The notes under the pieces are model-generated. The model was not told the DNA's origin. It made no database searches and saw only the letters and a list, made by a program, of their open reading frames with translations. Below are positions 1,676 through 64,000 of a stretch of 64,000 nt of DNA, one piece after another. The DNA is taken from contig OU342637.1 in NCBI GenBank assembly GCA_910589415.1, forward strand, positions 42,066,162-42,130,161, given 5' to 3'. The position numbers and the translations under genes are program-made. How positions within the stretch are numbered: position 1 is the first letter of the stretch; each line of letters begins with the position of its first letter. Source of the DNA: Malachius bipustulatus. Lineage: Eukaryota > Arthropoda > Insecta > Coleoptera > Melyridae.

Positions 1676-2257
1676 CAATGGAAGGCGATGATGGATCTCT
1701 TTCATACATCTTTCACACTCGAATCCATTTCGAATTCCACTCTTTTGCACTCCTGTGCTTTTTTATTATTTCGTTTTGCTTTTGTTTCATTTCTTTGATT
1801 TCATTTCAAGCATCAGCTCGAATTAATTAAAGAATACAACCACTTTGGTTACAGATGACCCGGGATATGGCGGGAATATCATCTGTGTGTTTACCTACTC
1901 AATAATTATTGAATTCTCATTTTGCATTTTAATGAGCTTTACTCGTTGACTCGGCTCTTCCTTTCGTTTGGGAATTTTTATGATCGTTTATTGTTGTGGG
2001 CTTTACCCTGATACACAGGCACTCCACTCTACATTTATGACCACTTGTTTGTTGGTCGAGTTTCTAGTTTGACTTCAACGTCGAGAGCAGTGTTGCCATG
2101 TTTGTTTTGATTGCTACCTCCTCTTTGAACGTGATACGAATGTCTTTCCAATTGCTTTTTCAATTGTGAAAGCGTGGTTTTCCTGAATTGACGTCATACT
2201 CATGATGTTTTAACTCATTTCGTTTATTTGTTGTGTCGTTGTTTTGCCTCATAGGCT

Positions 2258-2268
2258 ACCTTTATTTG
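2258..2268. other. empty site equivalent to the retrozyme-array insertion
   Basis: ACCTTTATTTG here corresponds to the ACCTTTATATG that is duplicated on both sides of the ribozyme array in copy B. The flanks continue colinearly on both sides in copy A with nothing inserted. Confidence 0.7.
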
Positions 2269-4624
2269 GCCACTTTTGGACCGTTTCGATACCTATTTGC
2301 CCTGCGGCTACCTTTTTGTTCTACCTGACCTAGCGGGGCGATGAGTCAATATACCTTATCATTTCGAATATGACGTTCTCTGCAATTCGCAGTTTTGTGG
2401 TTATTGCTATTTTAAATGTGATGACCAACTGACCAAATTAGGCCGCTATTCTAGAATTATCCCTCAGGGTTCCCGTGGGCTTGCCTAGGTAATAATTGAA
2501 TGCTGGAATTTTTATGAATACCTATATTGGAGCCGGTGGGTTTTATAATCGAGCCCAACCATCGATTTCACCGTGGTCCAAGGTTTTACTCCTAACACCT
2601 GTTTAGAAAGCAGATAACTCAGTCCAGACTGAATAACATTTTATAGCAATTTTCTGCGGGGTTTCTATTAAATTTTTATTGAAGTTGACTTTCGTATAAT
2701 GTGCTAAAGGAGTTTTTGTTTTGATTGATTTTGATTGGCTTTTCACGTACTCGGGACTAATTTGTTTTTGGTTGCTTTGAATCCCTATTTGTGGAATTGC
2801 AATTCCTAATCCGAGATTTATTTCGGTTGTTGTATTTCCTGATATTTGATGAGCAGGTATTACACCTGACAACCCTGTCTTGGTTTTGGCCTACTCTATC
2901 CTTCAACTAAGGGTGCTTTGTTGCCCCGTTGCTCGCTACGATTTCCACTTTGAGAGTCATGCTCTTTTACCGGCTACCCGAGGTCTTCATCTGGACTTCA
3001 AGATGAATCCCTCCCCCAACGTGTGGTAATCGAGTACCTATTATAATTCCTGATCGGATATTGTAATGTAACTGGTATTTCCTGATATTTGAGGAGCAGG
3101 TATTACACCTGACAACCCTGTCTTATCTTGCCCTGTTCTATCCTACTCTATATCGGAGGCAGTGCCATGCTACGGCGAGAACTATGGTCTTCATTCATGG
3201 TGCTATACAATAGCGAAGGAATTCCTTTCGCTTTCTAAATGTCGTATGATTTAAACGGACAGGTTCTTGCCTGATTTAAAATGGGACTTGCATACGTGAA
3301 TGTTGCGAATCGGTTTAATTATTAATTTATGTGGATTTTGTTTCGAAGAGAGATCTTCCCTAACTACTTTCTCAATGGACTTTCCCTAATTTGTGAAGAA
3401 AATTCCTTCAGAATTTGCGTTTTGAAATCTACTAGTGAATCGGTTCGAAGAGAATTTGCCCACTGCGAGTATTGAGTTCTTTCGAGACGAGATGCAAATT
3501 AATTGGATTTCCACTGGAATTTTCCTAGGGTAGATGGAGGAAATTTACCTAGAATCCACTTATGCCATCTCCAGGTAAATTATGTTAAAGAAATTTAGAA
3601 TTATTGTGATTGGAAGTTTGCGTGAAACGATATTTGCCCTTATTGGGTTGCAACTGGAATTTTTCTAAGGTAGATAAAGGAAATTCAACCGGAGTCCGCA
3701 TAGGCCATCTCTGGTTAAATTATAGAGTTTAGATAAGGATTGGGCGATATAGAGTCCGCTAAGCCGTCTCCAGATAACGTCCAAAGGGTTAGGAAGTCAG
3801 ATTTTATCTGAGTTAGCAAGGGTTAAGGAATCTGACCGAGCCTGATCTAAATCTGAACTCTGCTTTTTTATAGAAGCAGTGGCCCGCTTTCTAAACACAA
3901 CACGCAACAATGCACCTTATTGGCACTGTCTTATACCGTGATTTTATGTGTTTTATTTCTTATCATACCTCCTTTATCTTGAGACTTAGCAAGTTGAGCT
4001 TGCGGCTACCTTACTAAATTGTCCTAAACCTGAACTACATAAATTTTCCTTAAAATCGGCGACGCGTTTTGTACTTTTCTTTGTACCTACCTACTATAAT
4101 TAGACCGGCTTAACTTTCGTTTCGTATTTTCACCTACTTGCTGTTTGAAGATCAGGATGAATTTTTGGCTATCGTCGTTTATTCCTTTGCTATACAGATT
4201 GCCCTACTATCATTACTGTGGGTGGAATACCTAGCAACTTGCTAGGTATTGACTGGAACTATTGTACCTACTTTTCGAGCCGCGTAACTTTCCTTCCACC
4301 GCCTCGAGGTCGTTCTATTATTTCACTCGATCCGAGGGTGTCTTTTATAAAGACATTCCAACATTTGGTTCTTTTCGTCATCGCTTTGCCGTTTCGTTTA
4401 GATGTTGTTAAGTGGTTGGAATACCACAAGCTAGAGCGTTTTTATTTTATGAATATTTAATGAGCTGGCAGGAATCGTTTCTTTTCCGCAATAGCGCGTG
4501 GTTGCGTTTTAATTTCCTAATAATTTTACCTTTAGGTAATTACGTACCTATTCTTGCACTGTTGGCTTTTTCAGTTTGGGTTGAATAAATTCCTTATCAT
4601 CCTACCTAGGTGTGATCCATTTCA

Positions 4625-5099: not shown

Positions 5100-5155
5100 A
5101 TCATGAGTAGAGCTCGGATTCTATTCAAGAAAAATTACAAAAATATGCGCATATA

Positions 5156-25197: not shown

Positions 25198-26186
25198 TAC
25201 AGGGTTAGAACTATTTAAAGGGCCACTATATAAGGGATATCCTAAACCATTGGAGATACAGGGTCGGTTAAATTAGAGAACAGTTGCGCTATTTTGTGGC
25301 CATCTCGAATCCGTCAAAACATGCAAGATATCTGTGACCGTTCCTGAAATATCCTGAAAAAACTGAAAAATAGAGAAATCTTATTTTTGCCATATCTTTC
25401 TTACAATTGGAAATAAATAAATAATTTTTCGTAGACTTACATAAGCCGTTATGAGCTATTCATCTGACGTTTCAAAAATTTTCAAAGCCGACTAGATCCC
25501 AGTCAACTTTCGTTTTTCTTATGGCTGCCATATTGTTTTTTTATTTCGTTCGTTATGAAAAAAATAATGGAAACCAAAAACTAATAAACTTCAAAAAATA
25601 AATGGAAAAAAATTTTTCTTCTTTTTCTTTTTAAAAAAAAAGAACTTTTTAGACCGAATATTATAGAGAAATTAAAAAACTTATAATGCAAGCAGTATGA
25701 CTTCATATTGATTTATTTCAGCGGAAAATTTTCTGTTTTTCTTTGAAAAAAGAAGAATAAAAATTTTCCAATTTTTTTTTTCTAAAATTTATTAATTTTT
25801 GGTTTCCATTACTTTTTTCTTATCGAACGACATAAAAAAATAATATGGCGGCTATAAGAAAAACGAAAGTTGACTATGAAAACTCTGGGATCTAGTCGGC
25901 TTTGAAAATTTTTGAAACATCAATTGAATAGCTCATAACGGCTTATGTAAGCCTACGAAAAATTATTTATTTGTTTCCAATTGTAAGAAAGATATGGCAA
26001 AAATAAGATTTCTCGATTTTTCAGTTTTTTCAGGATATTTTAGGAACGGCCACAGATATCTTGCATGTTTTGACGGATTCGAGATGGCCAGAAAATAGCG
26101 CAACTTTTCTCTAATTTAACCGACCTCGTATCTTAAATGGTTTAGGATATCCCTGTAGTGGCCCTTTAAATAGTTCTAACCCTGTA
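25198..26186. mobile_element. fold-back MITE, TACAGGGTTAGAAC family
   Basis: The two halves (about 490 bp each) are nearly complete inverted copies meeting around 25650-25700. Ends TACAGGGTTAGAACTATTT and the complement are flanked by TA. It sits at the extreme end of hAT copy 2. No coding capacity. Confidence 0.85.
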
Positions 26187-35919: not shown

Positions 35920-36412
35920 GTAGTGTAACGGAACGACCCCGGGTCCCTCGGTCTGTCGCGAAAAGCCACTGTGATCGTCTATTTACCTCTGGGTTTCCCC
36001 TAATAGGACCGCTGTGATTTCTTTCGTTGTGTTTTACCGTGGTTACCCCTGCTCGTTGATTGAGGTATGCCAGGATTAGTATGGCCGAAACGGATGCACG
36101 AAGAACCTACTATGACTCATTGTATCTCGGTTGATTTGGATTTCTTTCCGGAAAAGCGGGAAAATTTACTTGAGACTTGTTGTTAACGGCGGACTTCCTG
36201 TCAGATGTCTAAAAGCGAATGATGAGCGAGAGAATTCGTTTGCAAGAGCGTAAAATGGTGAAGGGCGAGAGGGGCTGTGATTTTGCATAGAGAGTACAAA
36301 ACAATGGAAAGCGAATGATGAATCCCTTTCATGCATTTTTCAAACTCCAATCCATTTCGGATTCCACTCTTTTGCACACCTGTGCTTTCTTATTATTTCG
36401 TTTTGTTTTTGT

Positions 36413-36790
36413 TAATTTCTTTGATTTCATTTCAAGCATCAGCTCGAATTAATTAAAGAGTACAACCACTTTGGTTACAGACTATCCGGGATATGGCGGA
36501 AATGTCTGTCTGATTTCCTATGCAACGACTTTCTTTGCCTAATTTCCTTTACCTAATTTCTTTGATTTCATTTCAAGCAACAGCTTGAATTAATTAAAGA
36601 ATACAACCACTTTGGTTACAGACTATCCGGGATATGGCGGAAATGTCTGTCTGATTTCCTATGCAACGACTTTCTTTGCCTAATTTCCTTTACCTAATTT
36701 CTTTGATTTCATTTCAAGCAACAGCTTGAATTAATCAAAGACAACAACCATTTTGATTACAGACTATCCGGGATATGGCGGAAATGTCTG
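36413..36790 (+). repeat. ~120-bp tandem triplication inside LTR copy B
   Basis: Three successive blocks contain TTTCTTTGATTTCATTTCAA, GAATTAAT, ACAACCA.TTTGGTTACAGA, and CCGGGATATGGCGGAAATGT. Copy A has a single such block (about 1785-1885), so the expansion happened in B's lineage. Confidence 0.8.
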
Positions 36791-37065
36791 TCTGTTTGTC
36801 GAGTTGCTAGCTTGGCTTGGATATCGAGAGCAGTTTTGCCGTGTTTGTTTTGATTGCTACCTCCTCTTTGAACGTTATACGAATGTCTTTTCAATTGCTT
36901 TTTCAATTGTGAAAGCTGGGTTTTCCTGAATTGACGTCATACTCATGATAGTTGTTTTAACTCATTTAGTTTATTTGTTGTGTCGTCGTTTTGCCTCACT
37001 GGGCTACCTTTATATGACAAAAGATGAATGACATGTTGTCAGACAACATGCCATCCATTAATGTT

Positions 37066-37152
37066 GTGCTGTGAGCAGAGGCGGAAATTGTAGACACGTG
37101 TTTCGTCCTGTTTGGGACTCTTCAGTACAATGTATCTACCAACACACAGCAC
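37066..37152 (-). ncRNA. hammerhead ribozyme, minus unit 1
   Basis: Core at 37093-37125: CTGAAGA, stem II GTCC/GGAC with loop CAAACA, GAAA, palindromic stem III CACGTG, cleavage after GTC. Stem I has an inner ATTGTA/TACAAT helix and an outer GTGCTGTG/CACAGCAC helix separated by an internal loop, the arrangement used for loop I-loop II tertiary contacts. Confidence 0.85.
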
Positions 37153-37377
37153 AGTTTAGATCACGGATCCCGTGAGCAGAATGCAATGAAATAAAAATAA
37201 AATAAAGGCACGGTGGGTTCGGCTTGCGCCATAGGATACACCCCAGACAGCCATAATGCATGCCAAAAATGAGTGCAGTGCCCCCCGGTGTGCATGAAGT
37301 AGGTAAAGCCCCTACTAGGCGTTGCTAGACAAAAGATGAATGACATGTTGTCAGACAACATGCCATCCATTAATGTT

Positions 37378-37464
37378 GTGCTGTGAGCAGAGGCGGAAAT
37401 TGTAGACACGTGTTTCGTCCTGTTTGGGACTCTTCAGTACAATGTATCTACCAACACACAGCAC
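37378..37464 (-). ncRNA. hammerhead ribozyme, minus unit 2
   Basis: Same core and stem I as unit 1; core at 37405-37437. All conserved core residues are present. Confidence 0.85.
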
Positions 37465-37689
37465 AGTTTAGATCACGGATCCCGTGAGCAGAATGCAATG
37501 AAATAAAAATAAAATAAAGGCACGGTGGGTTCGGCTTGCGCCATAGGATACACCCCAGACAGCCATAATGCATGCCAAAAATGAGTGCAGTGCCCCCCGG
37601 TGTGCATGAAGTAGGTAAAGCCCCTACTAGGCGTTGCTAGACAAAAGATGAATGACATGTTGTCAGACAACATGCCATCCATTAATGTT

Positions 37690-37776
37690 GTGCTGTGAGC
37701 AGAGGCGGAAATTGTAGACACGTGTTTCGTCCTGTTTGGGACTCTACAGTACAATGTATCTACCAACACACAGCAC
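37690..37776 (-). ncRNA. hammerhead ribozyme, minus unit 3, core mutation
   Basis: Core at 37717-37749 reads CTGTAGA in place of CTGAAGA: the invariant A6 is changed to U. Stems are unchanged. This unit is predicted to be cleavage-defective. Confidence 0.8.
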
Positions 37777-38001
37777 AGTTTAGATCACGGATCCCGTGAG
37801 CAGAATGCAATGAAATAAAAATAAAATAAAGGCACGGTGGGTTCGGCTTGCGCCATAGGATACACCCCAGACAGCCATAATGCATGCCAAAAATGAGTGC
37901 AGTGCCCCCCGGTGTGCATGAAGTAGGTAAAGCCCCTACTAGGCGTTGCTAGACAAAAGATGAATGACATGTTGTCAGACAACATGCCATCCATTAATGT
38001 T

Positions 38002-38088
38002 GTGCTGTGAGCAGAGGCGGAAATTGTAGACACGTGTTTCGTCCTGTTTGGGACTCTTCAGTACAATGTATCTACCAACACACAGCAC
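38002..38088 (-). ncRNA. hammerhead ribozyme, minus unit 4
   Basis: Core at 38029-38061, consensus. It is the last minus-strand ribozyme before the inversion. Confidence 0.85.
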
Positions 38089-38307
38089 AGTTTAGATCAC
38101 GGATCCCGTGAGCAGAATGCAATGAAATAAAAATAAAATAAAGGCACGGTGGGATCGGCTTGCGCCATAGGATACACCCCAGACAGCCATAATGCATGCC
38201 AAAAATGAGTGCAGTGCCCCCCGGTGTGCATGAAGTAGGTAAAGCCCCTACTAGGCGTTGCTAGACAAAAGATGAATGACATGTTGTCAGACAACATGCC
38301 ATCCATT

Positions 38308-38394
38308 GTGCTGTGTGTTGGTAGATACATTGTACTGAAGAGTCCCAAACAGGACGAAACACGTGTCTACAATTTCCGCCTCTGCTCACAGCAC
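38308..38394 (+). ncRNA. hammerhead ribozyme, plus unit 1 (at the inversion)
   Basis: Core at 38335-38367, cleavage predicted after 38367. Its outer stem I strand GTGCTGTG (38308-38315) is the first sequence after the strand switch, so the ribozyme is complete even though the unit upstream is truncated. Confidence 0.85.
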
Positions 38395-38619
38395 AACATT
38401 AATGGATGGCATGTTGTCTGACAACATGTCATTCATCTTTTGTCTAGCAACGCCTAGTAGGGGCTTTACCTACTTCATGCACACCGGGGGGCACTGCACT
38501 CATTTTTGGCATGCATTATGGCTGTCTGGGGTGTATCCTATGGCGCAAGCCGAACCCACCGTGCCTTTATTTTATTTTTATTTCATTGCATTCTGCTCAC
38601 GGGATCCGTGATCTAAACT

Positions 38620-38706
38620 GTGCTGTGTGTTGGTAGATACATTGTACTGAAGAGTCCCAAACAGGACGAAACACGTGTCCACAATTTCCGCCTCTGCTCA
38701 CAGCAC
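38620..38706 (+). ncRNA. hammerhead ribozyme, plus unit 2
   Basis: Core at 38647-38679. The base after the cleavage site is C instead of T (GTC then CACAAT), which breaks the first pair of inner stem I. The core is otherwise consensus. Confidence 0.82.
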
Positions 38707-38931
38707 AACATTAATGGATGGCATGTTGTCTGACAACATGTCATTCATCTTTTGTCTAGCAACGCCTAGTAGGGGCTTTACCTACTTCATGCACACCGGG
38801 GGGCACTGCACTCATTTTTGGCATGCATTATGGCTGTCTGGGGTGTATCCTATGGCGCAAGCCGAACCCACCGTGCCTTTATTTTATTTTTATTTCATTG
38901 CATTCTGCTCACGGGATCCGTGATCTAAACT

Positions 38932-39018
38932 GTGCTGTGTGTTGGTAGATACATTGTACTGAAGAGTCCCAAACAGGACGAAACACGTGTCTACAATTTC
39001 CGCCTCTGCTCACAGCAC
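38932..39018 (+). ncRNA. hammerhead ribozyme, plus unit 3
   Basis: Core at 38959-38991, consensus in all core residues and stems. Confidence 0.85.
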
Positions 39019-39243
39019 AACATTAATGGATGGCATGTTGTCTGACAACATGTCATTCATCTTTTGTCTAGCAACGCCTAGTAGGGGCTTTACCTACTTC
39101 ATGCACACCGGGGGGCACTGCACTCATTTTTGGCATGCATTATGGCTGTCTGGGGTGTATCCTATGGCGCAAGCCGAACCCACCGTGCCTTTATTTTATT
39201 TTTATTTCATTGCATTCTGCTCACGGGATCCGTGATCTAAACT

Positions 39244-39330
39244 GTGCTGTGTGTTGGTAGATACATTGTACTGAAGAGTCCCAAACAGGACGAAACACGT
39301 GTCTACAATTTCCGCCTCTGCTCACAGCAC
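39244..39330 (+). ncRNA. hammerhead ribozyme, plus unit 4
   Basis: Core at 39271-39303, consensus in all core residues and stems. Confidence 0.85.
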
Positions 39331-39555
39331 AACATTAATGGATGGCATGTTGTCTGACAACATGTCATTCATCTTTTGTCTAGCAACGCCTAGTAGGGGC
39401 TTTACCTACTTCATGCACACCGGGGGGCACTGCACTCATTTTTGGCATGCATTATGGCTGTCTGGGGTGTATCCTATGGCGCAAGCCGAACCCACCGTGC
39501 CTTTATTTTATTTTTATTTCATTGCATTCTGCTCACGGGATCCGTGATCTAAACT

Positions 39556-39642
39556 GTGCTGTGTGTTGGTAGATACATTGTACTGAAGAGTCCCAAACAG
39601 GACGAAACACGTGTCTACAATTTCCGCCTCTGCTCACAGCAC
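39556..39642 (+). ncRNA. hammerhead ribozyme, plus unit 5
   Basis: Core at 39583-39615, consensus in all core residues and stems. Confidence 0.85.
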
Positions 39643-39867
39643 AACATTAATGGATGGCATGTTGTCTGACAACATGTCATTCATCTTTTGTCTAGCAACG
39701 CCTAGTAGGGGCTTTACCTACTTCATGCACACCGGGGGGCACTGCACTCATTTTTGGCATGCATTATGGCTGTCTGGGGTGTATCCTATGGCGCAAGCCG
39801 AACCCACCGTGCCTTTATTTTATTTTTATTTCATTGCATTCTGCTCACGGGATCCGTGATCTAAACT

Positions 39868-39954
39868 GTGCTGTGTGTTGGTAGATACATTGTACTGAAG
39901 AGTCCCAAACAGGACGAAACACGTGTCTACAATTTCCGCCTCTGCTCACAGCAC
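39868..39954 (+). ncRNA. hammerhead ribozyme, plus unit 6
   Basis: Core at 39895-39927, consensus. The unit is cut short about 195 bp downstream by the right edge of the insertion. Confidence 0.85.
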
Positions 39955-41380
39955 AACATTAATGGATGGCATGTTGTCTGACAACATGTCATTCATCTTT
40001 TGTCTAGCAACGCCTAGTAGGGGCTTTACCTACTTCATGCACACCGGGGGGCACTGCACTCATTTTTGGCATGCATTATGGCTGTCTGGGGTGTATCCTA
40101 TGGCGCAAGCCGAACCCACCGTGCCTTTATTTTATTTTTATTTCATTACCTTTATATGGCCTCTTTTGGACCGTCAATACCTATTTGCCCTGCGGCTACC
40201 TTTTTGTTCTACCTGGCCTCGTAAGGCGATGAGTCAATATACCTTATCATTTCGAATATGACGTTCTCTGCAATTCGCAGTTTCTTGTGCTATTTTAAAT
40301 GTGATGACCAACTGACCAAACTAGGCCGCTATTCTATAATTATTCCTCAGAGTTCCCGTGGGCTTGCCTGGGTAATAATTGAATGCTGGAATTTTTATGA
40401 ATACCTATATTGGAGCCGGTGGGTTTTATAATCGAGACCAACCATCGATTTCACCGTGGTCCAAGGTTTTTATCCCTAACACCTGTTTAAAAAGCAGATA
40501 ACTCAACCGCTTATTGCCATCTCTAGGGTTTACCGTCCAAAGGGTTAGGAAGTAAGATTTGACCTGCTCGAAAGCTGATCTCAATCTGCCTGTACCTGCT
40601 GTAAGACGTCTGCTTTTATAGAAGCAGTGGCCCGCTTTCTAAACACGACAAGCAACAATGCCCCTTATTGGCACCCTGATTTCTTGTGTTGGTTTCTTAT
40701 CAAATCTCCCTTATCTCGAGATTTAGCAAGTTGACCTCGCGGCTACCTTACTAAGTTGTCCAAACTTCAACTACCTAAATTTTCCTTAAAATCGGCCGAC
40801 GCGTTCTGTACCTTTCCATTGTGCCTAGCTATTATAATCACACCGGCGTAACTTTCATTTCGTGTTTTCACCTGTTTGCTGCTCCAGGATTATGATGAAC
40901 TTTCGGCTGTTGTCATCCATTAATTCGCTCTATTGATTGGTGAAATTTTCATTATCGTGGGTGGAATACCTAGCGACTTACTATTGTCTTTGCATGGGGT
41001 TATTGTTTAATTTACAAATCTTTCCACCCGGTCTGTATCTAGGTCGTTTATTATTTCACTCGATCCGAGGGTGTCTCATAATACATCCACCAACATCTGG
41101 TCCGCTTCTCTCATCGCTTTGCGACTCCTTTCGATGTTTAAAAGTGCTGGAATGTTACTAGGGCGAGAGCGATTTCTCTTTTATGAATATCTATCTAATG
41201 AGCTGACGTCGTTTCTTTGCCGCGCTGGCGGGTGGAAGTGTTTTGATTTCCTAACAATTTTATCTTTAGGTAATTACGTACCTGTTCTTGCACTATTTGC
41301 TTTCTCGGTTTGGGTTGAATTAACGAGGGGGATGGAAATAATTTCCTTATCATCCTACCTAGGGCGATCCATTTCAGTAG

Positions 41381-43621: not shown

Positions 43622-44175
43622 TTCTTGTAACCCTTCCTTCGCTCGATCACAAAAAAAAAAATTTTAATTAATCAGGCCAAAAAGAAAACTAAAAAAAAAT
43701 AAGCGAAAGGAAGGTGTCTCTCCCTCTGATCCCATCCAGGTACCTTCAAATTTGTTTGTACACAAAACAGGACAGAGGGGTAAAATATTTAAAAAAAAAA
43801 AATGATGATGATGAAACTACAAATTTGTCGACATGATCGTCTAACTATAAAAAAAAATTATAAGATTCAAAATTTACATAACTGACCTGCCCTACGTTGT
43901 GTCTATTTATTTTTCAGGCCATACAGATACTTAAAATAAAACTCACATAAAAAATTTAACAATTTATTGGACTTCTCCAATTAACAACATAAAACTTCCC
44001 AGCTAACGGTATATTGTATTGTGAGACAAAAGAAAATTTATCTTGGATTTCTCCCTTATCATCTACATACTAGCAACATTTCTTAAAAATAGAACAATAG
44101 TAAACTAAAAAAATGTTGATCTCGTTGATCAACAAATTACCTTCATTAGGTACTTGACAAAAAAAATTCACATTC

Positions 44176-45954
44176 TTAACCCTTAGTTGGTAACATCCGA
44201 CTCTGAGGCGGATGCCAAGTTTTGATGCTGCGCTGAATCCAAACGAATGAATATACAAAAATTTCGTATTAGGTATGTTCTAGTTGGTTGCCAAAAAGTC
44301 CATAGCCGCCTTCGCGAAAATACGTCTGTGAGACGGGTGTTACTCAGAACGATATATTTCAGTCCATCTCTCAGTCGGCTGTTGGTCGAAAGTATGGTGA
44401 ATGAAAAGGTATAATATATAAAAAAATGTATAAAAATGAAATAAGTCTTGTTTTAATAAAATATATTTGTGTTTACTAGAATACATTCGAATAAATATGT
44501 AATTATACATATTATTATAATACCTATTCCGACTGAGCGACGGATGTTACCTATCCCAGGCAGCAAGGAATGTTCACTGAATGTTCCCTAAATGTTCACC
44601 GAACATTAAACATTGCTCTAATGTTAAACAGACTTTCCGAATATTCAGGCAACGTTCAGATTCTAATGTTCGTTTTCAGACCTTGAATAAACATTCATTG
44701 AACATTAGATACTGAACATTCAAAATGCAATGTTTAATTAACATTCATACAATGTTTAAGATGAAATGTTTATTGCACGCAATTACATACAGGTACACTG
44801 ACATCAGGTAAATAACATATCGATGGTGAACTGGCAATAAGTCCTATCTCAAAAAAGTAAATTGGTCAGGAAGCGAAAAAAAAGTTCTTTTTTTTTTAAT
44901 TTAGAATTTCCGAAACAAGAAAAAAAAAACGTATATGTTTATTTTGTAACATATACTTAAATTTAGCAATAAATATTAATCACATGCTGAACGTGTATAA
45001 TAGCAGTAGGACAATTTAACACAATAAACGGAAAATGCCTGAAATTTCAGATAGGACATATTACCAGTTCACCATCGATATACCAAAAAAATTGGAAAAT
45101 CACATGCTGAAACGAAAATATTTGGCTTAAAAATTGATAAAAACCAGAATTATATTATTATAATTATTACAACGAGGTGTTGCGCGCGCAGCTCTCTTGT
45201 CTATTTCATTCCCAGTCCCAGTTGTCTTGTGTTCAATTCAATATGTCCGTTATTCTTGGCATTTCATCTTGTTTTTCTAAACTAATAGGTATAAAAGTCA
45301 CAATAAATTATCAGCAAGCTAAGTATTTTATGCTTGTCTGGTCGGAGAGAGAAGGTGCAGAGAGTGATGCAAACTAATCTAATTCTTCATCCCAGGTATT
45401 ATATATAGGTAGGTAGGTATTATGATGTAGATAGGAAGAAGAAAAACAACACGGAAGAGCAAATGTGACCTTATAATAATAATAATAATAATTTATATTG
45501 TTCACTGATGGATTGATAAATGGAATACACCTACATAGTAAGTATTATTTTTTTCAGCTTTTCAGCTCCATATAGGTAATACAATTCTTAGTGATGATCA
45601 GTTGGATAAAAAAAAACAAACATTCACTCAACATTTAAAACGAATATTCATTGAATGTTTACGAATCTGTCGTTTTTCACATTGGCTGAATGTTCATTTT
45701 TGAATGTTCAGTAAACATTCATTTATAAATGTTCACTAAAGCTTAAATCTGAACATTCACTGAACATTTAAAACTAACCTTCATTGAATGTTCACGAATC
45801 TGTCGTTTCTAACATTGGCTGAATGTTCATTTTTAACATTCAGTGAATGTTCGATTGCTGCCTGGGATAATGCTGGAACTGTAATATGATCACCGACTGA
45901 GAGACGGATGTTACTTATAAAGTGAAAAAAAGTATGTTACCAACTAAGGGTTAA
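44176..45954. mobile_element. piggyBac-like MITE, copy 2, inside the Gypsy 3' LTR
   Basis: Element 44180-45950 with the same CCCTTAGTTGGTAACAT ends as 9260-9716 and TTAA on both sides. The other LTR keeps the single uninterrupted TTAA at 57661-57664, direct proof of insertion. It was itself interrupted by the element at 44554-45867. Confidence 0.9.
44554..45867. mobile_element. TA-inserting non-autonomous element with AATGTTCA repeats
   Basis: Inverted ends TCCCAGGCAGCAA / TTGCTGCCTGGGA sit in a duplicated TA (44552-44553 and 45868-45869). The uninterrupted MITE copy near 9633 shows the empty site. Both ~200-bp subterminal regions are packed with AATGTTCA / TGAACATT words in both orientations. 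The 1.3-kb body has no recognisable ORF and contains an AAT microsatellite at 45476-45492. Confidence 0.82.
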
Positions 45955-47019
45955 CACTAACTAAATTTGGCCAATTAATTCTCCCTGATAATTAATTTAG
46001 ATTAAGATTAAATACTAAATTGAACATTTCTACTCACTAGCTAAAACTAACAACATTGGGGAAGTATTTCCCAATTATTAAAATAATAAAAATTCCCATC
46101 TTGATAAAATCAATAACGCAATCTGATGAAGTTACTTCCTCTCTTTTTAGAGATAAATTCAATGTAAACTAAATGAAACAAAAGAATTTACAAAGTACCT
46201 TTGAAGTTCCAATCATTTCTTGATGAAACGTGACTGCAACAGAAAGATCCAAAAGAAATGAGATAGACTGTGATGTCTACTCCCTCTCCTGTTGGCTAGG
46301 TCCGGCTTTGTCTGTAGAACGCCATTACTTCCAAAAAGAATTATGCTCTTCTACCCAGTGCTTGAAAATGGGATATTTCTCAACGGAGACCACCATCAGC
46401 ACATTTTGGAAATAAAATAAACGACTAAACAATCGATCTTATTATAGATCCACCCCTAAGGAGGGACCCTGCAACGAGAACAAATTATAAACACCTAAAA
46501 TTCTACTAATCGCCATCTTTAATTTTACCAAAAGAACTCCTTCGTCCTTTCAGGTTACTTGAATCTACATCTCCACACTCACATAGATGAAATTGATTTC
46601 TCCTGATTTAGGAAATAACAAGAACATTAGTTTTTACTAAAATAGAACCAAACAAACTCCATACCTGAATTTTCCAGCAAGAACAATACAACACTATAGA
46701 CAACAAATTGCTCCACTCACATCTTCACCTCATCATGGTTTTCGACAGAGAGAGCGACCGTCCGCGTCCGACGATCTTCCCTGTCCTCGACCCCTTTGTT
46801 AATCGATCTCCCCGCGCAAGACCAGCCGTCTACTACCTCGGTCGGTCACTTCACCGAGTGGCAGTTGACAAGACTCTGACTGACAGACTCATAACTCGAT
46901 CCCGTTACTATACCTCAAACTATAGAACTTGCGGAGGGCATCAAACTAAAGAAACGCCATCTTGGAAGTCCTTGATGCGTAAATCCATTCGGGATAACTA
47001 CGGAAAAGCGCACGCTACA

Positions 47020-47033
47020 CCACTCCCCCAACC
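47020..47033 (-). promoter_or_regulatory. Gypsy polypurine tract
   Basis: GGTTGGGGGAGTGG on the coding strand directly abuts the 3' LTR, the position expected for plus-strand priming. Confidence 0.75.
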
Positions 47034-47130
47034 AAAATAAAAAAATGGGATAACATACCATTTTTTTGCTCATCAAGAACACCAGAAAATATCTTCTAGA
47101 CTCTCCATTGACTTCTATGTACATATATAC

Positions 47131-49471
47131 AACGCTCTTCCTAAAGAACAAAATGGTCTCACTGACCGTACCAACGGACTAATCATAAATGTTCTTCCTA
47201 AAGAAACAAAATGGTCTCACTGACCGTACCAACAGACTACCCATACAGCACACCCAATAACGATTACGGTGTGTTTGCATTGTGACAATGTATCTAGAAG
47301 CAGACACAAGGTGACACAATTTTACGATGTAAATGTGCTACGTTTACACACCTTAGGTACATAGGTATGCACAAAGGTTAAACGTCCGCCTCACAATGTA
47401 GTCACAGTATTCCATTTATATATACACAAAGTAAGTGATCTACAATGTGTCATCGTATGCTACCAGTGATTGTGTATTATACTTGCTCTGCATACACATT
47501 GTATTTGTCCTATTAATTTTGAATGTAAATGTACTATACCGTGTATATGTAGCACTTTCGTCCCGTGTATACACACTCTACATAAAACTATACTTTTCAT
47601 GAACTAGGGTACTTCAGGGAGATAAAAGTTTTGCAGCCTGACTTTTCGTATTCGTATTTTACCAATGAATTTATTGATTGTTACCTATTATCTTTGTTAT
47701 TTTGGGAACGAAAGGTCGGACTGCGAAACTTTTATTTTCCAGAAGTATCTAGCTAGCTCAAGAAAGGTAGTTTTAAAATTGTTCCATTTTTCCTTCCATA
47801 TATCTTATGTCGTTAATGTCTTTATGGAAGTTCTGTATTTCACTCTATAGGTACCTATATAGTTACACTATTATAAAACATTATTATTTATGCAAATAAA
47901 AACAGAAGTAGGAATAAAACACTGGAATATTACAAAATTTTTATAAAAATATCAAAATCTGTCAAAAACAACATAGTTAAAATGCAAAAATATAGGTATA
48001 TTATACATCGGCAGTCTTTGCGGCAGCCCTCTTCTCAGCCATTCTCCTCTTTTTTTTTTAATTTTCCCCGATCGTCACCGCCTGTAAATACAAAATATTT
48101 CAGTGTTGATGGACGAGAATTTTCATTAATTTTCTGCAATTTAAGCAATAATAAAAAGTCCGGATTTATTATGTTATAAATCATCAGAAACACTATCACT
48201 TGCAGATTGTTTATACATATTATGCACAGTGCTATTACTTTTACGTGGTGTATACACAAAATTTAATAGCTATATAGGCTCTTCATATGCCTGAAATTTT
48301 GTTGGAAAAATGTATGGAAGTCGTTAAATTTAAAATTTCTAACAATCCAAAATCCAATACAATTAAGGTACATAAAACTTATAGGTAATAATCCAACGCG
48401 TATCTATGGATGTATGAACGGTAAATCACAATATTCTAATAACGAATGTTTATACAACGTAAAGATCGTTTCATCAAAATGTTATTAATTTTAGGTACAA
48501 AAAGCATACAATAATATTAAACATTAAACGTTTCAACATCAATAATAATAATCCTATATAGGAGTAATAACGTATTTAAAAACCTTTACTTACCTCATAA
48601 AATCCTTTTCAAGCTGCACACTCACACAGAGAACACTTCCGAGCTTCGAAATGAAATTAAAATGGCTGCTGGCACTGCTTTGCTTTACCACTCTTTTATA
48701 GAAATGCGTGAACACATGGTCGGTGTGCATACGATGACTCTTATGCGCGCGCATGTTTGAGCACCAATGTAGACACAACAATACACAACTATGGAGTGTA
48801 TATATTGTTTTTTGTATTATGTGTAAATGTCGCACGTTTACAGGGTGTGTGCAGTAGACACAAGATACACAGTCAGTATGCATACACCAATCTGCTCGAA
48901 TGTAGACACAACGAAACACAACTAAGGAGTGTATATATGGTGCTTTGTATTATGTGTATACGACGCATTTTTACATGGTGCGTACAGTAGGCACAAATAA
49001 TATTTAAAGCATCACAGATACATATGACTTATACGTTGTGGGTATCATGTACGGACGTCAAATTTCATCATTTAAATAGTTATTTTTTACGTCATATAAA
49101 AATGTTTTGAATCTTAATTGCATACAGTATACAATGATTAGACACTGTATCACATAATTATATCGATATAAAAATTGGTGTATCTCATTTGTGTATGTCA
49201 TTACTAGATCAATAATTCGATCCACATTAACGTCTTTTGTTCCTCAAGTGTTTATCTTGTAGAGACGTAATTTTATTTGGACGTGCTGTATGGGTAATAA
49301 CAAACGTTCTTCCTAAAGAAACAAAATGGTCTCACTGACCGTACCAACGGACTAATCATAAATGTTCTTCCTAAAGAAACAAAATGGTCTCACTGACCGT
49401 ACCAACAGACTAATAACAAACGTTCTTCCTAAAGAAACAAAATGGTCTCACTGACCGTACCAACAGACTAA
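47131..49471 (-). repeat. ~52-bp tandem repeats in the Gypsy 3' UTR
   Basis: Units containing TTCTTCCTAAAGAAACAAAA, TGGTCTCACTGACCGTACCA and ACAGACTA are present twice at 47131-47239 and three times at 49297-49471. They are separated only by the element at 47240-49294. A second repeat family (GAATATTGAAATG, CACTTATTCCAATA) occupies about 49500-49715. Confidence 0.85.
47238..49296. mobile_element. 2.05-kb TA-inserting element, CCCATACAGCAC family
   Basis: Element 47240-49294 with perfect 12-bp inverted ends CCCATACAGCAC / GTGCTGTATGGG and TA on both sides; excision in silico restores the 52-bp repeat unit. The interior is rich in TGTGTATAC / TGTAGACACAA-type words arranged in direct and inverted order, especially at 47270-47580 and 48720-49000. 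No convincing ORF is seen; the 109-codon minus frame there is built from these repeats. Confidence 0.82.
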
Positions 49472-49768
49472 TTGATTTCGCCTACCCCGACCCGTTCACC
49501 TACGAATATTGAAATGGAAATACAGAAAAACACTTATCCCAATATCCGGAGACAAGGAGTCTGAATAATTGAAATCAATAACTGCTCTTGTCCTTTTCAA
49601 AGAAAGACATAAGTCCTAATGACCAACCCAAAATATCACCCATACCTATCAATTCTGGACCTTTTACCTGAGAATATTGAAATGAAAATACAGAGAAACA
49701 CTTATTCCAATACCCAAAGGCATGGAACCAGAACGACAAGGCAGTAAACTAAACTCTAATAAAAAGAA

Positions 49769-50992
49769 CTAACATTCCCAAACACCGGATAACCTCCTCT
49801 CCCTAGAAATTTCCCACACGGTATCTTGTTTCCTACGAAACCGACATAGCACCGGCTCTTTGGAAATAAATTTCTGTAAAGAAAAAGGTGTGTAGAGAAA
49901 TCTAACCAGCTTTTGACCCACAAAAATCCAAAAATCATTATGATCCAAACCAGGTACCACTCTACCAGGATCATAAATCGTCTGAAATGCTGGAATATCC
50001 CCTGTAGATGAGATATTACCCAGCTCTTTGTTCAACGGGGGGTTGACCTCTTCCGGAGTCGGAGTATCCACCGTCCTTTGATGAAAATGGTGGTAAATGA
50101 GATAACTGAGGTTCAACTTCTTCTTGAAAATCTTGTTAACCATCAATTGGCACGAGCATTGGAAAAATCTTGGTCCTTCACCATAAACTTTCCAGCCTGC
50201 CCCTATATTTCTGATACAGTATGCCAGACCACTTAAGGTCTCTAACCTCCATCGACCCCTATATGCGAATACATCGGAACAATATGACCTACCCAATCTC
50301 AAACTTGGACGACGGCAGGGCTTAGACTCATGGATATTAGGTAGACATTCAGGAAAAGCCAGTTGAAAATTCAATGCATCCCGACAATTTAGAAAATCGG
50401 AAACTCGCAAAATCACCAAACTCATTTTATCAAAAATGATTTTATCTTCAATTCTTGATTCTTTATTATCTGAAACCTCCGGAAAGGGATCCAATTCCTT
50501 TACTTTGGTTACTCCAGGTTTGGCACCTAAATCGAAAAATCTTCGAGCTTCAGTAAATTCAGCTTCTGAAGGCTTTCTATACATACCCAAAATCAACACC
50601 ACATCGCCATCATAAGGCGTTAAACAGCATTTATCATAAAACACAATTTCTGATGAGAGATGCTTGGCATTAAAACGAATGAACATGGATGCTACATCAA
50701 TGCCTTGTGCCTCACAACATCTTCTAGCTTCACAATAATAATAGTATGAAAACAGAGGCACATCAGCGTGTTTCTTTTCGATAATGGCGTGGCCTGCCAA
50801 AAATTTGAAATACCGTTCCTTCTCTACCAGAAACAAATCGCTCTCCATCTGAACATCCCTAGGCCTAATATCAGAATTAACATTAAACTCCAACAATAGC
50901 TTCATTTCATCCCACAGAAGGAAGTTGAATTTCACTTTATTTGGGCGCCTCTCAGCAAACACCTTCGCTCGACGCTTACTAGCGGTAGACAT
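49769..50992 (-). CDS. Gypsy third ORF, 407 aa, unknown function
   Basis: This is an uninterrupted ATG-initiated frame downstream of pol on the same strand, about 1 kb after the pol stop. The N-terminus is basic (ASKRRAKVFAERRPNKVKF). The middle has Tyr/Cys-rich stretches (SYYYYCEARRCCEAQ). A Lys/Arg-rich piece (FKKKLNL) lies near residue 290. I see no signal peptide, transmembrane anchor or furin-type site, so it does not look like a retroviral envelope. It resembles no Gag, RT or transposase I know. Length and absence of stops beside an intact gag-pol suggest it is still under constraint, or simply young. Expression would need a spliced or internally started mRNA (inference). Confidence 0.75.
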   Translation of the reverse strand: MSTASKRRAKVFAERRPNKVKFNFLLWDEMKLLLEFNVNSDIRPRDVQMESDLFLVEKERYFKFLAGHAIIEKKHADVPLFSYYYYCEARRCCEAQGIDVASMFIRFNAKHLSSEIVFYDKCCLTPYDGDVVLILGMYRKPSEAEFTEARRFFDLGAKPGVTKVKELDPFPEVSDNKESRIEDKIIFDKMSLVILRVSDFLNCRDALNFQLAFPECLPNIHESKPCRRPSLRLGRSYCSDVFAYRGRWRLETLSGLAYCIRNIGAGWKVYGEGPRFFQCSCQLMVNKIFKKKLNLSYLIYHHFHQRTVDTPTPEEVNPPLNKELGNISSTGDIPAFQTIYDPGRVVPGLDHNDFWIFVGQKLVRFLYTPFSLQKFISKEPVLCRFRRKQDTVWEISRERRLSGVWEC

Positions 50993-52026
50993 GGTGACTC
51001 AGAACTGGTACTGCTGGTTGCCCTGTGACTGCGACTGAGCTGTTCCTCTTCGGCTTTCCCTCCTCCGATACCAACTTGGTGACTGGAATGCAGAAACAGG
51101 GGAACGCTTATTCCAGTACCTTGAAGATACCGGAGGGCCCCAACTGCCTCACAGAAACTAACTCAACCTCTCTAAATGTGCAACAATACCTGTGGAAGTT
51201 ATAATCATTAATCTTGAAAACAACAATGCAAAAACATCAACTGACTAATTGGGTTAGTAATTAGTCCTAACTAAAATTCAAAATGAAATTTCGAAAAACT
51301 AAACGTTAGTCAAAATTACCCTAAAAGGTAAATAGATCCTTTTAGAAATCTTAATGTGAACTACCTGAACTACTAAAGACAAAACTTTACTCAAAACTTA
51401 CAAATAGTTACTCAAAACTACTTGACGATACTCAAAACTGTCTGGTAAATATTAGTGAAGACTTCTGTGATAGATTTGATAGACACAACATAACTAAGAC
51501 TTATTTAGAAAGAAAAGACATCAGCTCAAGACTAAAATTCGTTTAGTTGATTTCCTAAACTGACACTAATCTTCCAAAAATTTTCTCCTTACTCAAAAAG
51601 ATAGAAAACTGCTCTTGGTAATCCAACAAATTTATACTCAATATCAGAATTACCAGAATTCAGAATTCCTGAAATTCTTTAATTAATTTTGACATGTGAT
51701 TTAGGGTAGCTAATCCTAAACACAGTCTACCTCACATAGATCTGAAAATTTTTCCTACTAACGTACCAACAAGGTAGGATTTTCATCTCTAAGGACCTCA
51801 CACAGACCTCCAGGACTTACACCAATGGGCTGCCTATTGGCTCCGGGATACAAAAGATACCTAACACAGACCTGGAGAACTTCCACACGGCATTGAACTC
51901 CAAAGTTCTGTGACCTAAAAATCTCTATCACATCTAAACTAAATTTACTCAGGACATTAGACAAAAGATAAGATTTACTAACTAACAACAACGATTTCCA
52001 AAATGATCCTTACTAAAACAAAATTA
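50993..52026 (-). other. non-coding spacer between Gypsy pol and the third ORF
   Basis: No long frame. A 77-codon frame at 51758-51991 is not supported by any domain. The segment could hold a splice acceptor or leader for the third ORF mRNA, but none is evident beyond generic AG sites. Confidence 0.4.
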
Positions 52027-55000
52027 CTAATCATCGATACTTACAAAGGGTTTAAGATCCTGAATGTGGAATTCACCCAAATTCTTCCCTGACTCATTAC
52101 TCAACTCAACAACTAAACCACTCCCTTTAACTTTCGTTATGAGAGCAGGAACATATTTAGGGGCTAGTTTCTTAGCGAAACCAGTCACCTTATCAGAAAG
52201 TACAAAATTTTTCTTCCAGACCTTGTCACCTACTTGATAACGAATGTCTCTTCGTCTCAGATTGTACCTGGAAGAATTTTTGTCATACGCTTTCTGAACT
52301 CGAGCCTGAATTTGTGGGTATAATTTCGGAACCTTCGAAATTTCCGATTGCCACTTTAACTTATCCGAAATCTGAACTGGATCATACGAATTCAAACCTA
52401 AGTCACCATAATACTGTCCATCCACCGGGACATTTCTACCAAAGATAAGAAAAGCAGGAGTAAAACCAGTGGCTTCATGCTCTGCTGTCCGAATAGCTTG
52501 TGCAATCTCATGCAAATGTTCATCCCAAGTTCTGTGGTCTTCCTTAACATAGGAGCTAATTGCAGAACCTAACACTTTATTTACCCTCTCAGTAGGGTTA
52601 ACTTGGGGATGATAACGTGCATTATACCAAACTCGCTGTACATGATACTTTTTCATAAGTGCCTTAAATTCCTTAGATGTAAATTGCACACCGTTATCAC
52701 AAACTACAATCTGAGGTACCCCGTATATCAAGAATACCTGGTTCTCTAAAAACTTGGCAACTTTCGAAGCTGTAGCTTTCGAAAGAGGCTGGACTAAAAC
52801 GAATCTTGAAAAAGCATCTGTGACAACCAACAATTGCGTATTTCCTGACTTAGACCGTGGAAATGGTCCCATCAAATCTAAAGAAATCATCTGAAATGGA
52901 AAGTCGACAGATCTCTTCTTACCATAAGCTCCGGCAGGAAGTTTATTGGTGGATTTGTGTGCTCCACACGTAGTACAAGATGACACGTACCTCCTAACCG
53001 TCTCTCTAATACCAGGCCAATAATACCTCTCTAAAATTCGTGCCAAGGTCTTATGCACTCCCAAATGAGCTGCTGTTGGACTATCATGACATTGCTCAAG
53101 AATTTCCTTTCGATTTTCAGTAGGAACTACCAACTTCCAGTTTGACTGGTTCGTTTCAATGTCATGATTATTCTTAATGTGCTTATAAATAGCACTACCT
53201 TGCACGAGAAAATTTGGATACTTTTGTGGATCACATTGTATCTTATTGATCATATCGGCATACCATTGGTCAGGAATTAAATTCTGAACTTCAACTGAAG
53301 CAATCTGTCTCGAAAGCAAATCCGGTACTACCATATCCTTTCCTGGACGATGGACTATCTTGAACTTAAAACAACTAAGCCTAACTGTCCAACGGGCGAT
53401 ACGACCCATGGGATCCTTAATTCTGTACAGCCACTGTAAACTGGCATGATCAGTTACTACAGTGAATTCTGCGCCCTCAACATAACCTCTAAATTTCTCA
53501 ATACCAAAGATAACTGCCAAACATTCTTTCTCCGTCGCCATATACTTGGTTTCGGCCTTAGAGAGTTTTCTGGACGCATAAGCAATAGGATGTTCAAAGC
53601 CATCTCGAAGCTGGAATAATACTGCCCCAATGCCGACGTCACTCGCGTCCGTCTGGATAAAGAATGGCTTATCGAAATCCGGGCTAACAAGAATAGGATT
53701 AGAGATCAATCTCTCCTTCAAATTACATAAGGCTGACTCGGCTGCTTCAGTCCAAACAATGGGGGCATTCTTTATTCGACCTTTAATGATCGAGGTGATT
53801 GGTTCAGAAATGGTCGAAAAGTCCTTAATAAACTTTCTATACCATTGTAACACTCCCATTATCCTTCGAACCTCTGTAGTGTTTCGCGGAGATGGCATTT
53901 CCGCTATAGCCTTGACCTTATCTGGGTCAGTTCTTAGCCCATTCCTATCTACTATGTAACCCAAAAATGTTAGGGAATCTCTACAAAATTGACATTTCGG
54001 AATATTCACCTTCAGACCCGCAGAAAACAAAATCTCAAAAACTTCATTCAACAACTTGACATGTTCATCAAAATCCTCAGAAACACAAACGATATCATCG
54101 AGATACACAAAAACTTTATCCTCAAATTTTGGATCCATAAATAATCTGTCCATCAACCGCTGTTGTGTCTGCGCGGCATTGCATAGACCGAACGGCATAA
54201 CTACAAATTGAAAAAGACCTCTTCCTTGAACTTGGAAAGCTGTCTTTTGCTTCGATGTTTCTTCTAAAGGAATATTCCAGAAAGCCTTAGTAATATCGAT
54301 GGAAGAAAGATATTTCTTACCACCTACCTTATTCAAAATATTATCAATCAATGGCAAGGGATAAGAATCCTTAACCGTTACCTGATTCAAACCTCTGCCA
54401 TCAAAACATAACCTATATGTACCTGGTTCTGATTTTGGTACCATTAAAATTGGAGATGCCCATGCGGACATACTTTTCTCAATTACTCCAGACTCTAACA
54501 TAGCATCGATCTCCTTATGCAAAATTTTATTAAGCATCGGCGATAATGGATATTGCCTTTGCTTAACTGGTCTAGCCTCACCAGTGTCAATAAAATGAGA
54601 GATGATATTTGTTCTCCCTGGTGCTGTTGACGACAAAGTCTCAAATTTAGTAATAACTTCAGACAACACCTTGCCCTGATCAGATGAAAGCTCGGCTAGA
54701 AAAGTATTAGAATCTGCCTTGGAAGAAGTTGATGCCTCAATTTGTCCTACCTGATAAGACCTGTTCTTAAAATTTAAATTGATGTTCGACAATCTACAAA
54801 AATCTGCACCCAAAATAATGGAATGCGAAATAGAAGGTACTACAGCAAATCTCAAATCGATAACCTTATTCTCGAAACTTACTGGAAACGTGACAAAACC
54901 TAACAACTCCTGTGAGCTACCATCTGCGATAGTCACATTCGTCCCATCCACATCCTTGACAAAAGTGTCATTACCTTCCCATAAAATTTCCACATTGGAA

Positions 55001-55188
55001 CCCAAAATCGATAAATTTGCACCAGTATCTAATAAACCCAAATATTGTCTATCTTCAATAACTATAGGTATATAAGGCCTATTATCATGTAGCTTTTTCT
55101 TAAACATCGGACAAATATCAGTATCACCCCTATCCAAATCTACACTCATCAACTTATTATTACAGTGGTTAGGTTCATTACCTACCAC
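52027..55188 (-). CDS. pol: Gypsy pol polyprotein (PR-RT-RNase H-IN)
   Basis: 1053 codons counted from a GTG; the frame is open further upstream and overlaps the end of gag, so translation probably enters by -1 frameshifting. Domains in order: aspartic protease with LLDTGAN near residues 52-58; RT with SSIDITKAFW near 295 and catalytic YLDD at 362-365; RNase H with TDAS at 513-516, a Glu near 553-555, and TDHAS near 579; integrase zinc finger (H701, H708/H712, C738, C741); integrase core with D771, D831 and E867, an exact D,35,E spacing. It ends with a basic tail and a chromodomain-less C-terminus. The RT-RH-IN order is diagnostic of Ty3/Gypsy. All catalytic residues are present, so the copy may be competent. 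Confidence 0.95.
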   Translation of the reverse strand: MVGNEPNHCNNKLMSVDLDRGDTDICPMFKKKLHDNRPYIPIVIEDRQYLGLLDTGANLSILGSNVEILWEGNDTFVKDVDGTNVTIADGSSQELLGFVTFPVSFENKVIDLRFAVVPSISHSIILGADFCRLSNINLNFKNRSYQVGQIEASTSSKADSNTFLAELSSDQGKVLSEVITKFETLSSTAPGRTNIISHFIDTGEARPVKQRQYPLSPMLNKILHKEIDAMLESGVIEKSMSAWASPILMVPKSEPGTYRLCFDGRGLNQVTVKDSYPLPLIDNILNKVGGKKYLSSIDITKAFWNIPLEETSKQKTAFQVQGRGLFQFVVMPFGLCNAAQTQQRLMDRLFMDPKFEDKVFVYLDDIVCVSEDFDEHVKLLNEVFEILFSAGLKVNIPKCQFCRDSLTFLGYIVDRNGLRTDPDKVKAIAEMPSPRNTTEVRRIMGVLQWYRKFIKDFSTISEPITSIIKGRIKNAPIVWTEAAESALCNLKERLISNPILVSPDFDKPFFIQTDASDVGIGAVLFQLRDGFEHPIAYASRKLSKAETKYMATEKECLAVIFGIEKFRGYVEGAEFTVVTDHASLQWLYRIKDPMGRIARWTVRLSCFKFKIVHRPGKDMVVPDLLSRQIASVEVQNLIPDQWYADMINKIQCDPQKYPNFLVQGSAIYKHIKNNHDIETNQSNWKLVVPTENRKEILEQCHDSPTAAHLGVHKTLARILERYYWPGIRETVRRYVSSCTTCGAHKSTNKLPAGAYGKKRSVDFPFQMISLDLMGPFPRSKSGNTQLLVVTDAFSRFVLVQPLSKATASKVAKFLENQVFLIYGVPQIVVCDNGVQFTSKEFKALMKKYHVQRVWYNARYHPQVNPTERVNKVLGSAISSYVKEDHRTWDEHLHEIAQAIRTAEHEATGFTPAFLIFGRNVPVDGQYYGDLGLNSYDPVQISDKLKWQSEISKVPKLYPQIQARVQKAYDKNSSRYNLRRRDIRYQVGDKVWKKNFVLSDKVTGFAKKLAPKYVPALITKVKGSGLVVELSNESGKNLGEFHIQDLKPFVSIDD

Positions 55189-55208
55189 TGCCTTATCAAT
55201 AACTTCAA

Positions 55209-56792: not shown

Positions 56793-57091
56793 CTTGATTA
56801 ATATAAAGATACACAAATATCAAAACTACAAAAACACTCAAATAGAGAAACCTTGATTTGGAACGCACAATGTATAGGTACCTTATCAATTAGTATTGCT
56901 CAAAATTGCAAAAATATTAGTAGTATTATTTACCGTTGTTAATTAACCTCACTTAATATCATCAAATGTCGTTAATATATGTACACACTATCTTAAAAAT
57001 CCAAAACATGAGTTAGCATAACCACATATAAGTACACATAAACATTAAAAAATTTCTCACAATACAATATTATCCAAAAATAAACTCCGTG

Positions 57092-57107
57092 CTGGTCACT
57101 GGCACCA
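57092..57107 (-). promoter_or_regulatory. Gypsy primer-binding site
   Basis: TGGTGCCAGTGACCAG on the coding strand starts 2 nt after the 5' LTR. The leading TGG complements a tRNA 3'-CCA. Which tRNA primes cannot be decided from memory. Confidence 0.65.
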
Positions 57108-57109
57108 TT

Positions 57110-62074: not shown

Positions 62075-62827
62075 TGTGAAAATTTCACGCCATCAATTTT
62101 CAGCCAATAAAGTACGAGCATTGCTTACCGTTGCCATGGTTATTTGTGTATTATATCGGAAATTTTCTCCTCCAGGGCTAAGCTGGAGAGTATTATAGTG
62201 GAAATTTTTTGACGTTTAAAAGTGACAACTAGGAACTTTATAAACGTCAACTGTTAACTGTTGCTGTTATTAATATTAATCAACCAATGCGTTTTGTTAA
62301 AGTTTCTATTATAATTTAATATTAAAGTGATGTTTTCGCGTATTACCACGTATGAAATCACGGATTCACTATCGAAAAAATGATCTGAAGAAACCTAATT
62401 TACCAAATTTAGTAATTCTATTTGAAATAGGTAGGTACTTACATAATTTTTCGGATAACACACGGCGAATTCATGGGGGTTCGACCACTTTATTTTTATA
62501 ATTAATTATATGGCACTTTTTGTTGGTAGAATCCATCTGCTGGGCAAATCCTTGCGCTTTGGAAAGAATGGCATCTAATCAATACTAATCATAATTACTA
62601 TTATACCGCAATTGTCGACTTATCATTATCAAAAAACACATTCGGCTGGTGAAGTTTATAAACTAAAATTTTTGTTTGACAGCGCTAATAATGGCGGCGC
62701 AGTTATTAAACGTCAGTTTGGCGTTGTCACGTGATTATGTTACGCCTCCATGTCATATTTTTATTTCACAATAAAATTGTAATTTTTCTATTCAAAACTA
62801 ATTTTGTTGTGAAATTTTCTTTCCAAA

Positions 62828-63891: not shown

Positions 63892-64000
63892 TTACATGTG
63901 AAAATTACATTTCATTTCCTTTCAAAACGTGCCTTAGAAGGGATTTTTAAATTTAACAAAACAAAAAAATTGGCAAAATTTAACAATTTTGTCCCTTTTC

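Follow-up and report, generated by a model that had tools for sequence, protein, structure and literature searches.

A head-to-head hammerhead retrozyme array in Malachius bipustulatus, possibly a record of reverse transcription primed from both strands of one target break

The DNA examined here, called the window throughout, is a stretch of 64,000 nucleotides from the beetle Malachius bipustulatus (assembly GCA_910589415.1, contig OU342637.1, positions 42,066,162 to 42,130,161). At 37016-40147 it carries ten copies of a non-coding 312-bp unit, each with a type I hammerhead ribozyme motif. The copies lie in two opposed arms that meet head to head inside a single short target-site duplication, and the sequence makes it very likely that the block is one insertion of a retrozyme. 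For its origin we consider a complete chain in which the RNA of a non-autonomous retrozyme lacking long terminal repeats (a non-LTR retrozyme) was cut by its hammerheads, circularised, and reverse-transcribed for several rounds from both strands of one staggered break. We place the probability of this whole chain at slightly above one half. More tentatively, at somewhat less than even odds, the locus could be viewed as a snapshot of rolling-circle target-primed reverse transcription, with both strands at one break primed on circular retrozyme RNA and each extended over several rounds.

The architecture follows from repeat finding and unit alignment. Tandem Repeats Finder reports two abutting arrays of period 312 bp, at 37016-38307 (4.1 copies) and 38307-40147 (5.9 copies), and alignment of the units places them on opposite strands:

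37016..38306, minus strand: left arm, 4.1 units, unit position 138 at the outer edge and 96 at the centre (repeat finding and unit alignment)
38307..40147, plus strand: right arm, 5.9 units, unit position 1 at the centre and 281 at the outer edge (repeat finding and unit alignment)
38306..38308, no strand: head-to-head junction with one shared T at 38307 (unit alignment)

The arms meet at 38306/38307 by their RNA-sense 5' sides, and in RNA sense the inner ends are unit 95/96 for the left arm and unit 1 for the right arm. The predicted ribozyme cleavage site lies after unit position 61, and none of the four arm ends falls there; copying traversed ten hammerhead cores. An earlier note on this DNA had described a single tandem row of ten units. 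Its period and the near identity of the copies hold at 37016-40147, but the row itself has to be replaced by two opposed arms with four hammerheads on the minus and six on the plus strand. A direct-tandem layout is thus present inside each arm and not over the whole block, in which four units are antisense and six are sense.

Compared with one reference unit, the 3132 bp contain three substitutions, each confined to a single unit: A to T at unit position 32, a conserved core base, in the copy at 37466-37777; A to T at position 248 in the copy at 38090-38307; and T to C at position 62 in the copy at 38619-38930. A fourth mismatch row in the unit alignment is the junction base only and is not a substitution. 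Because only three substitutions are found in 3132 bp, the insertion is probably recent. The GC content is below 50% (0.464 at 38001-40000). A protein-coding reading was rejected, as the earlier note had also proposed, since no frame longer than 120 amino acids from stop to stop touches the array. The 312-nt unit RNA is predicted to fold more stably than its shuffled versions (z = -2.63; 2 of 100 shuffles equally stable). The longest hairpin of the predicted unit fold, 16 bp at unit 96-130 (e.g. 38402-38436), begins with the base that forms the inner end of the left arm (unit 96), which may be chance.

All ten units were recognised by the Rfam hammerhead model RF00163, with scores of 54.1-58.7 bits (E values 7.5e-13 to 2.4e-11) against a gathering score of 34 bits:

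37087..37131, minus strand: type I hammerhead 1 (Rfam 58.7 bits)
37399..37443, minus strand: type I hammerhead 2 (Rfam 58.7 bits)
37711..37755, minus strand: type I hammerhead 3, one conserved core base changed (Rfam 54.1 bits)
38023..38067, minus strand: type I hammerhead 4 (Rfam 58.7 bits)
38329..38373, plus strand: type I hammerhead 5 (Rfam 58.7 bits)
38641..38685, plus strand: type I hammerhead 6, base after the cleavage site changed (Rfam 58.1 bits)
38953..38997, plus strand: type I hammerhead 7 (Rfam 58.7 bits)
39265..39309, plus strand: type I hammerhead 8 (Rfam 58.7 bits)
39577..39621, plus strand: type I hammerhead 9 (Rfam 58.7 bits)
39889..39933, plus strand: type I hammerhead 10 (Rfam 58.7 bits)

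The claim that every unit holds a full hammerhead stands at the level of the covariance model for ten of ten; it does not stand to the letter for the copies at 37711-37755 and 38641-38685, with their changed core base and changed base after the cleavage site. A permissive Rfam scan of the window gave no hammerhead beyond the ten. Matches below the gathering score to five microRNA families and one cis-regulatory family were taken as chance. A hammerhead core pattern allowing up to three mismatches matched the window ten times (nine exactly, one with one mismatch), always at the ten hammerheads, and never in 100 shuffles. Core patterns run against collections of viral and prokaryotic contigs (two patterns on viral contigs, one on genome contigs) gave no match, a result with little bearing on animal genomes.

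The predicted secondary structure points to a ribozyme that works as a dimer. The earlier note had drawn stem III as a 3-bp palindromic hairpin of CACGTG, which is impossible because such a stem has no room for a loop. A hairpin form of stem III can have at most an A-U pair and one C-G pair closing an ACGU loop, whereas in a dimer it is predicted to become an 8-bp ACACGUGU helix. The minimum-energy fold of the 87-nt ribozyme region (-25.7 kcal/mol) does not contain stem III, the first pair of which has a probability of 0.006, and the best fold that keeps the hammerhead reaches -23.5 kcal/mol. For two copies of the region the predicted structure, at -62.1 kcal/mol, is a double hammerhead whose stem III has 8 bp; two separate monomers reach -51.4, a comparison that ignores concentration. 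Since the two-copy fold is favoured and stem III of the monomer is weak, cleavage as a dimer is predicted, which supports the earlier proposal on the side of folding. The RNA is probably able to cut itself. Dimer cleavage has been measured for axolotl retrozymes (PMC7229834).

The case for a single insertion rests on the flanks, whose direct repeat and empty site are additions to the earlier note. The palindromic block is bounded by a direct repeat of 10-12 bp, (T)ACCTTTATAT(G), of which ten bases are unambiguous and one on each side possibly belongs to the array. Among 20,000 random pairs of positions in the window, given equal slack, repeats of at least 10 bp occurred in 5 and of 11 bp in none. 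The site lies in an older repeat with a second copy in the window:

37005..37016, no strand: left target-site duplication, TACCTTTATATG, unambiguous part 37006-37015
40147..40158, no strand: right target-site duplication, TACCTTTATATG, unambiguous part 40148-40157
2254..2271, plus strand: empty site in the paralogous repeat copy, GGCTACCTTTATTTGGCC (sequence comparison)
35921..41376, plus strand: older repeat split by the insertion; its outermost matches to 1291-4624, which are broken and not continuous (self-comparison of the window)

The second copy, at 1291-4624, is unbroken at the insertion point and agrees with the flanks at 89.5% and 92.6% identity beside the site and at 85.6% and 75.0% further out; its empty site has 11 of 12 bases in common with the duplication. 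The longest duplication that could be assigned to one arm alone measures 2 bp (left arm) or 3 bp (right arm), so that two independent insertions were rejected. With one duplication enclosing the block, an empty paralogue and no separate duplication for either arm, a joint arrival of the two arms is the simplest and most likely interpretation, in line with the earlier claim that the array was mobilised as one insertion. A 141-bp tandem repeat (2.7 copies) at 36413-36794 also lies inside the repeat that hosts the retrozyme, and the paralogue has about one unit of it at 1789-1897.

The same flanks bear on the possibility that the insertion began as a uniform tandem, the left part of which was inverted afterwards, or that the inversion is an assembly error. 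The left duplication runs straight into the antisense arm without a single sense base between them, so that a later inversion would have had to break precisely at the edge of the array. An artefact of reading through a hairpin would mirror the flank, whereas the actual flanks differ, both being collinear with the empty site, while the arms are unequal in length and phase. We regard this explanation as the least probable of those considered. Hardly more probable is the capture of extrachromosomal retrozyme fragments, as complementary DNA (cDNA) or DNA, by end joining into a staggered break. The target and the unit overlap by at most one base at each edge, and joints with 0-1 nt of overlap would suit such a process. 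It would, however, need both pieces, of the same unit, in one event with a clean duplication, and it leaves the head-to-head order unexplained.

The preferred chain accounts for this order. The unit RNA would be cut by its hammerhead, probably in dimeric form, and then circularised. A staggered break with an overhang of 10-12 nt would be opened, and the 3' ends of both target strands would start synthesis inside the circle, facing unit positions 138 and 281, with no more than 1 nt of homology. The reverse transcriptase, for which a Penelope-like element acting in trans is the most likely source, would circle the template about four times for one arm and about six times for the other, after which the two cDNA ends would be joined centrally, at the inverted repeat of stem I. 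Since both 3' ends of a staggered break would prime, the observed form, with starts outward and ends in the centre, is the one to be expected. Such reactions have precedents. The purified Penelope-like protein of an Anolis element cuts and extends both strands in vitro and starts within the RNA at sites that share no homology with the target (PMC11167929). Inverted pseudo-LTRs, usually in head-to-head order, occur in bdelloid Penelope copies, and duplications of 8, 9 and 10 bp are among the examples (PMC3846280). Animal retrozymes form circles of about 170-400 nt, their duplications, when present, exceed 4 bp, and Penelope-like elements are the suspected helpers (PMC7229834).

Arms of 4.1 and 5.9 rounds call for a circular or multimeric template. 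The earlier suggestion of a circular or concatemeric RNA agrees with the several rounds and with arm ends off the cleavage site, which leave circle and multimer undecided; the circle is the economical template, not a proven one. A linear, uncleaved multimeric transcript that was reverse-transcribed through twin priming by a long interspersed nuclear element (LINE) or a Penelope-like enzyme should also be weighed, and we consider it unlikely. In L1 twin priming the 5' part is inverted within one target duplication and priming occurs at the poly(A) tail. The first of these properties is shared by the present locus; the second is not, as the right edge lacks poly(A) and the homology available for priming is at most 1 nt per edge. 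Furthermore, the arms agree unit for unit and display no common pattern of variants from a source array. On the other hand, the Anolis element mainly uses unprocessed RNA in vitro (PMC11167929).

The main rival for the inversion is copy-back synthesis, which we also consider unlikely, though less so than the linear multimer. In this case cDNA primed at the right edge would fold at stem I, where units 1-9 pair with 81-89, and copy itself into the left arm. The junction is at most 7 nt from the turning point of stem I, and only 296 of 20,000 random junctions were equally close in a test chosen post hoc. Self-priming is, moreover, how the authors of PMC3846280 read the inverted junctions and palindromes of Penelope. 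An exact turn at stem I would, however, carry six extra bases, beside the CATTAATG palindrome, the left outer end would be arbitrary, and none of the three substitutions is common to mirror positions of the arms, yet all three may be later mutations. Joining of cDNA ends via the stem I palindrome and copy-back at it would look alike.

Several points weigh against the proposed chain of circularisation and priming from both strands. The nearness of the junction to the stem I palindrome fits copy-back too. The evidence comes from one locus, for which the empty site was supplied by a paralogue and not by an allele. On the unit, 143 nt separate the outer ends (138 and 281), whereas in the Anolis element top and bottom strands share start sites, 30-40 bp apart (PMC11167929). 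The motif preferred by the Anolis protein, 5'-ATT-3', is absent from the duplication, and some bdelloid Penelope copies have no duplication at all (PMC3846280). Hammerhead mutants of the Anolis element insert like the wild type, and in vitro the enzyme works mainly on unprocessed RNA (PMC11167929), so that an enzyme of this kind needs neither cleavage nor a circle; the dispensable hammerhead slightly lowers the rating of the full mechanism. Finally, a Penelope-like gene was not seen among the 13 open reading frames (ORFs) of the window scanned with Pfam, in which the sole reverse transcriptase is that of a Gypsy element.

This Gypsy-type LTR retrotransposon occupies 43625-58710 on the minus strand, with gag at 55209-56816 and pol at 52027-55188, the latter with reverse transcriptase, RNase H and integrase domains. 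Among 120 of the 2170 database matches to its Pol, one bears the name of an organism, Photinus pyralis (46%). Its repeated ends are 99.6-100% identical (43625-44180 with 57109-57665, and 45951-47000 with 57661-58710, where 47000 was the limit of the stretch compared). An insert of about 1.77 kb (44181-45950) interrupts one repeat copy and shows a 5-bp overlap, as a target duplication would leave; parts of the insert match 9256-9720. An element at 13055-15703 with 552-bp terminal inverted repeats, 98.6% identical, is perhaps a DNA transposon or a foldback element; the two of its enclosed ORFs that were scanned, 13791-14210 and 14537-15004, had no Pfam match, as was the case for all 10 ORFs of the window scanned in addition to the Gypsy pol. 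Long palindromic (foldback) repeats with arms 83-97% complementary are found at 5153-5912, 6232-7181 and 25233-26154, and at 62064-63906 a repeat of about 0.9 kb occurs twice, head to tail, with 95% identity between the copies.

For the mobility of animal retrozymes, Penelope-like or LINE helpers have been proposed from shared features and co-occurrence (PMC7229834). The present locus adds physical evidence on retrozyme movement, in the form of an empty site, one duplication, and arm ends that would mark where synthesis started or stopped. If the layout is general, head-to-head arms within one short duplication would be a signature of Penelope-like enzymes mobilising animal retrozymes. Other retrozyme genomes could be tested for copies in head-to-head order, for short duplications, and for outer ends that fall repeatedly on a small number of unit positions and not on the ribozyme cleavage site. 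If the proposal is true, palindromic loci could also yield long double-stranded RNA of their own unit.

Comparison with known systems places the element close to the metazoan non-LTR retrozymes (PMC7229834; review PMC7761336), with which it shares the type I hammerhead, a non-coding unit within 170-400 bp, a GC content below 50%, the multimeric arrangement, and a target duplication above 4 bp (here 10-12 bp, with an empty site). Outside the units, the block is not bordered by LTR-like ends. The very weak hairpin stem III with its palindromic loop and the better cleavage as a dimer, predicted here, resemble the hammerhead repeats of axolotl and newt (PMC7229834), the core being compared via the Rfam model only. 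The difference is that metazoan retrozymes are published as tandem repeats (PMC7229834), whereas the block described here consists of two opposed arms. The term 'head-to-head' is absent from the main text of that paper, and in the 12 of its 16 occurrences that were examined 'invert' is part of 'invertebrate'. Judged by titles and passages, none of the open-access papers searched reports a head-to-head or inverted retrozyme or hammerhead array, and passages on the W-elements of Schistosoma, some of which are hammerhead satellites, showed none either.

Penelope-like elements with inverted pseudo-LTRs (PMC3846280, PMC11167929) are similar in their head-to-head repeats, in the 8-10 bp duplications of several copies, and in having a hammerhead motif inside the element and partial tandems. 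Their insertion geometry, head-to-head repeats within one short duplication, is also that of the present block; the 30-40 bp tail from two nearby reverse transcriptase starts is not, the outer ends being unit positions 138 and 281. Penelope-like elements encode a reverse transcriptase and a GIY-YIG endonuclease and have minimal hammerheads, whereas the 312-bp unit is non-coding and its hammerhead is canonical. The array as a Penelope-like element itself was rejected, as it is without an ORF for a reverse transcriptase or GIY-YIG domain. By its sequence the element thus has the tested features of a metazoan non-LTR retrozyme, the direct tandem being confined to each arm. The element itself is a further member of a known retrozyme class, and what sets it apart is its head-to-head layout.

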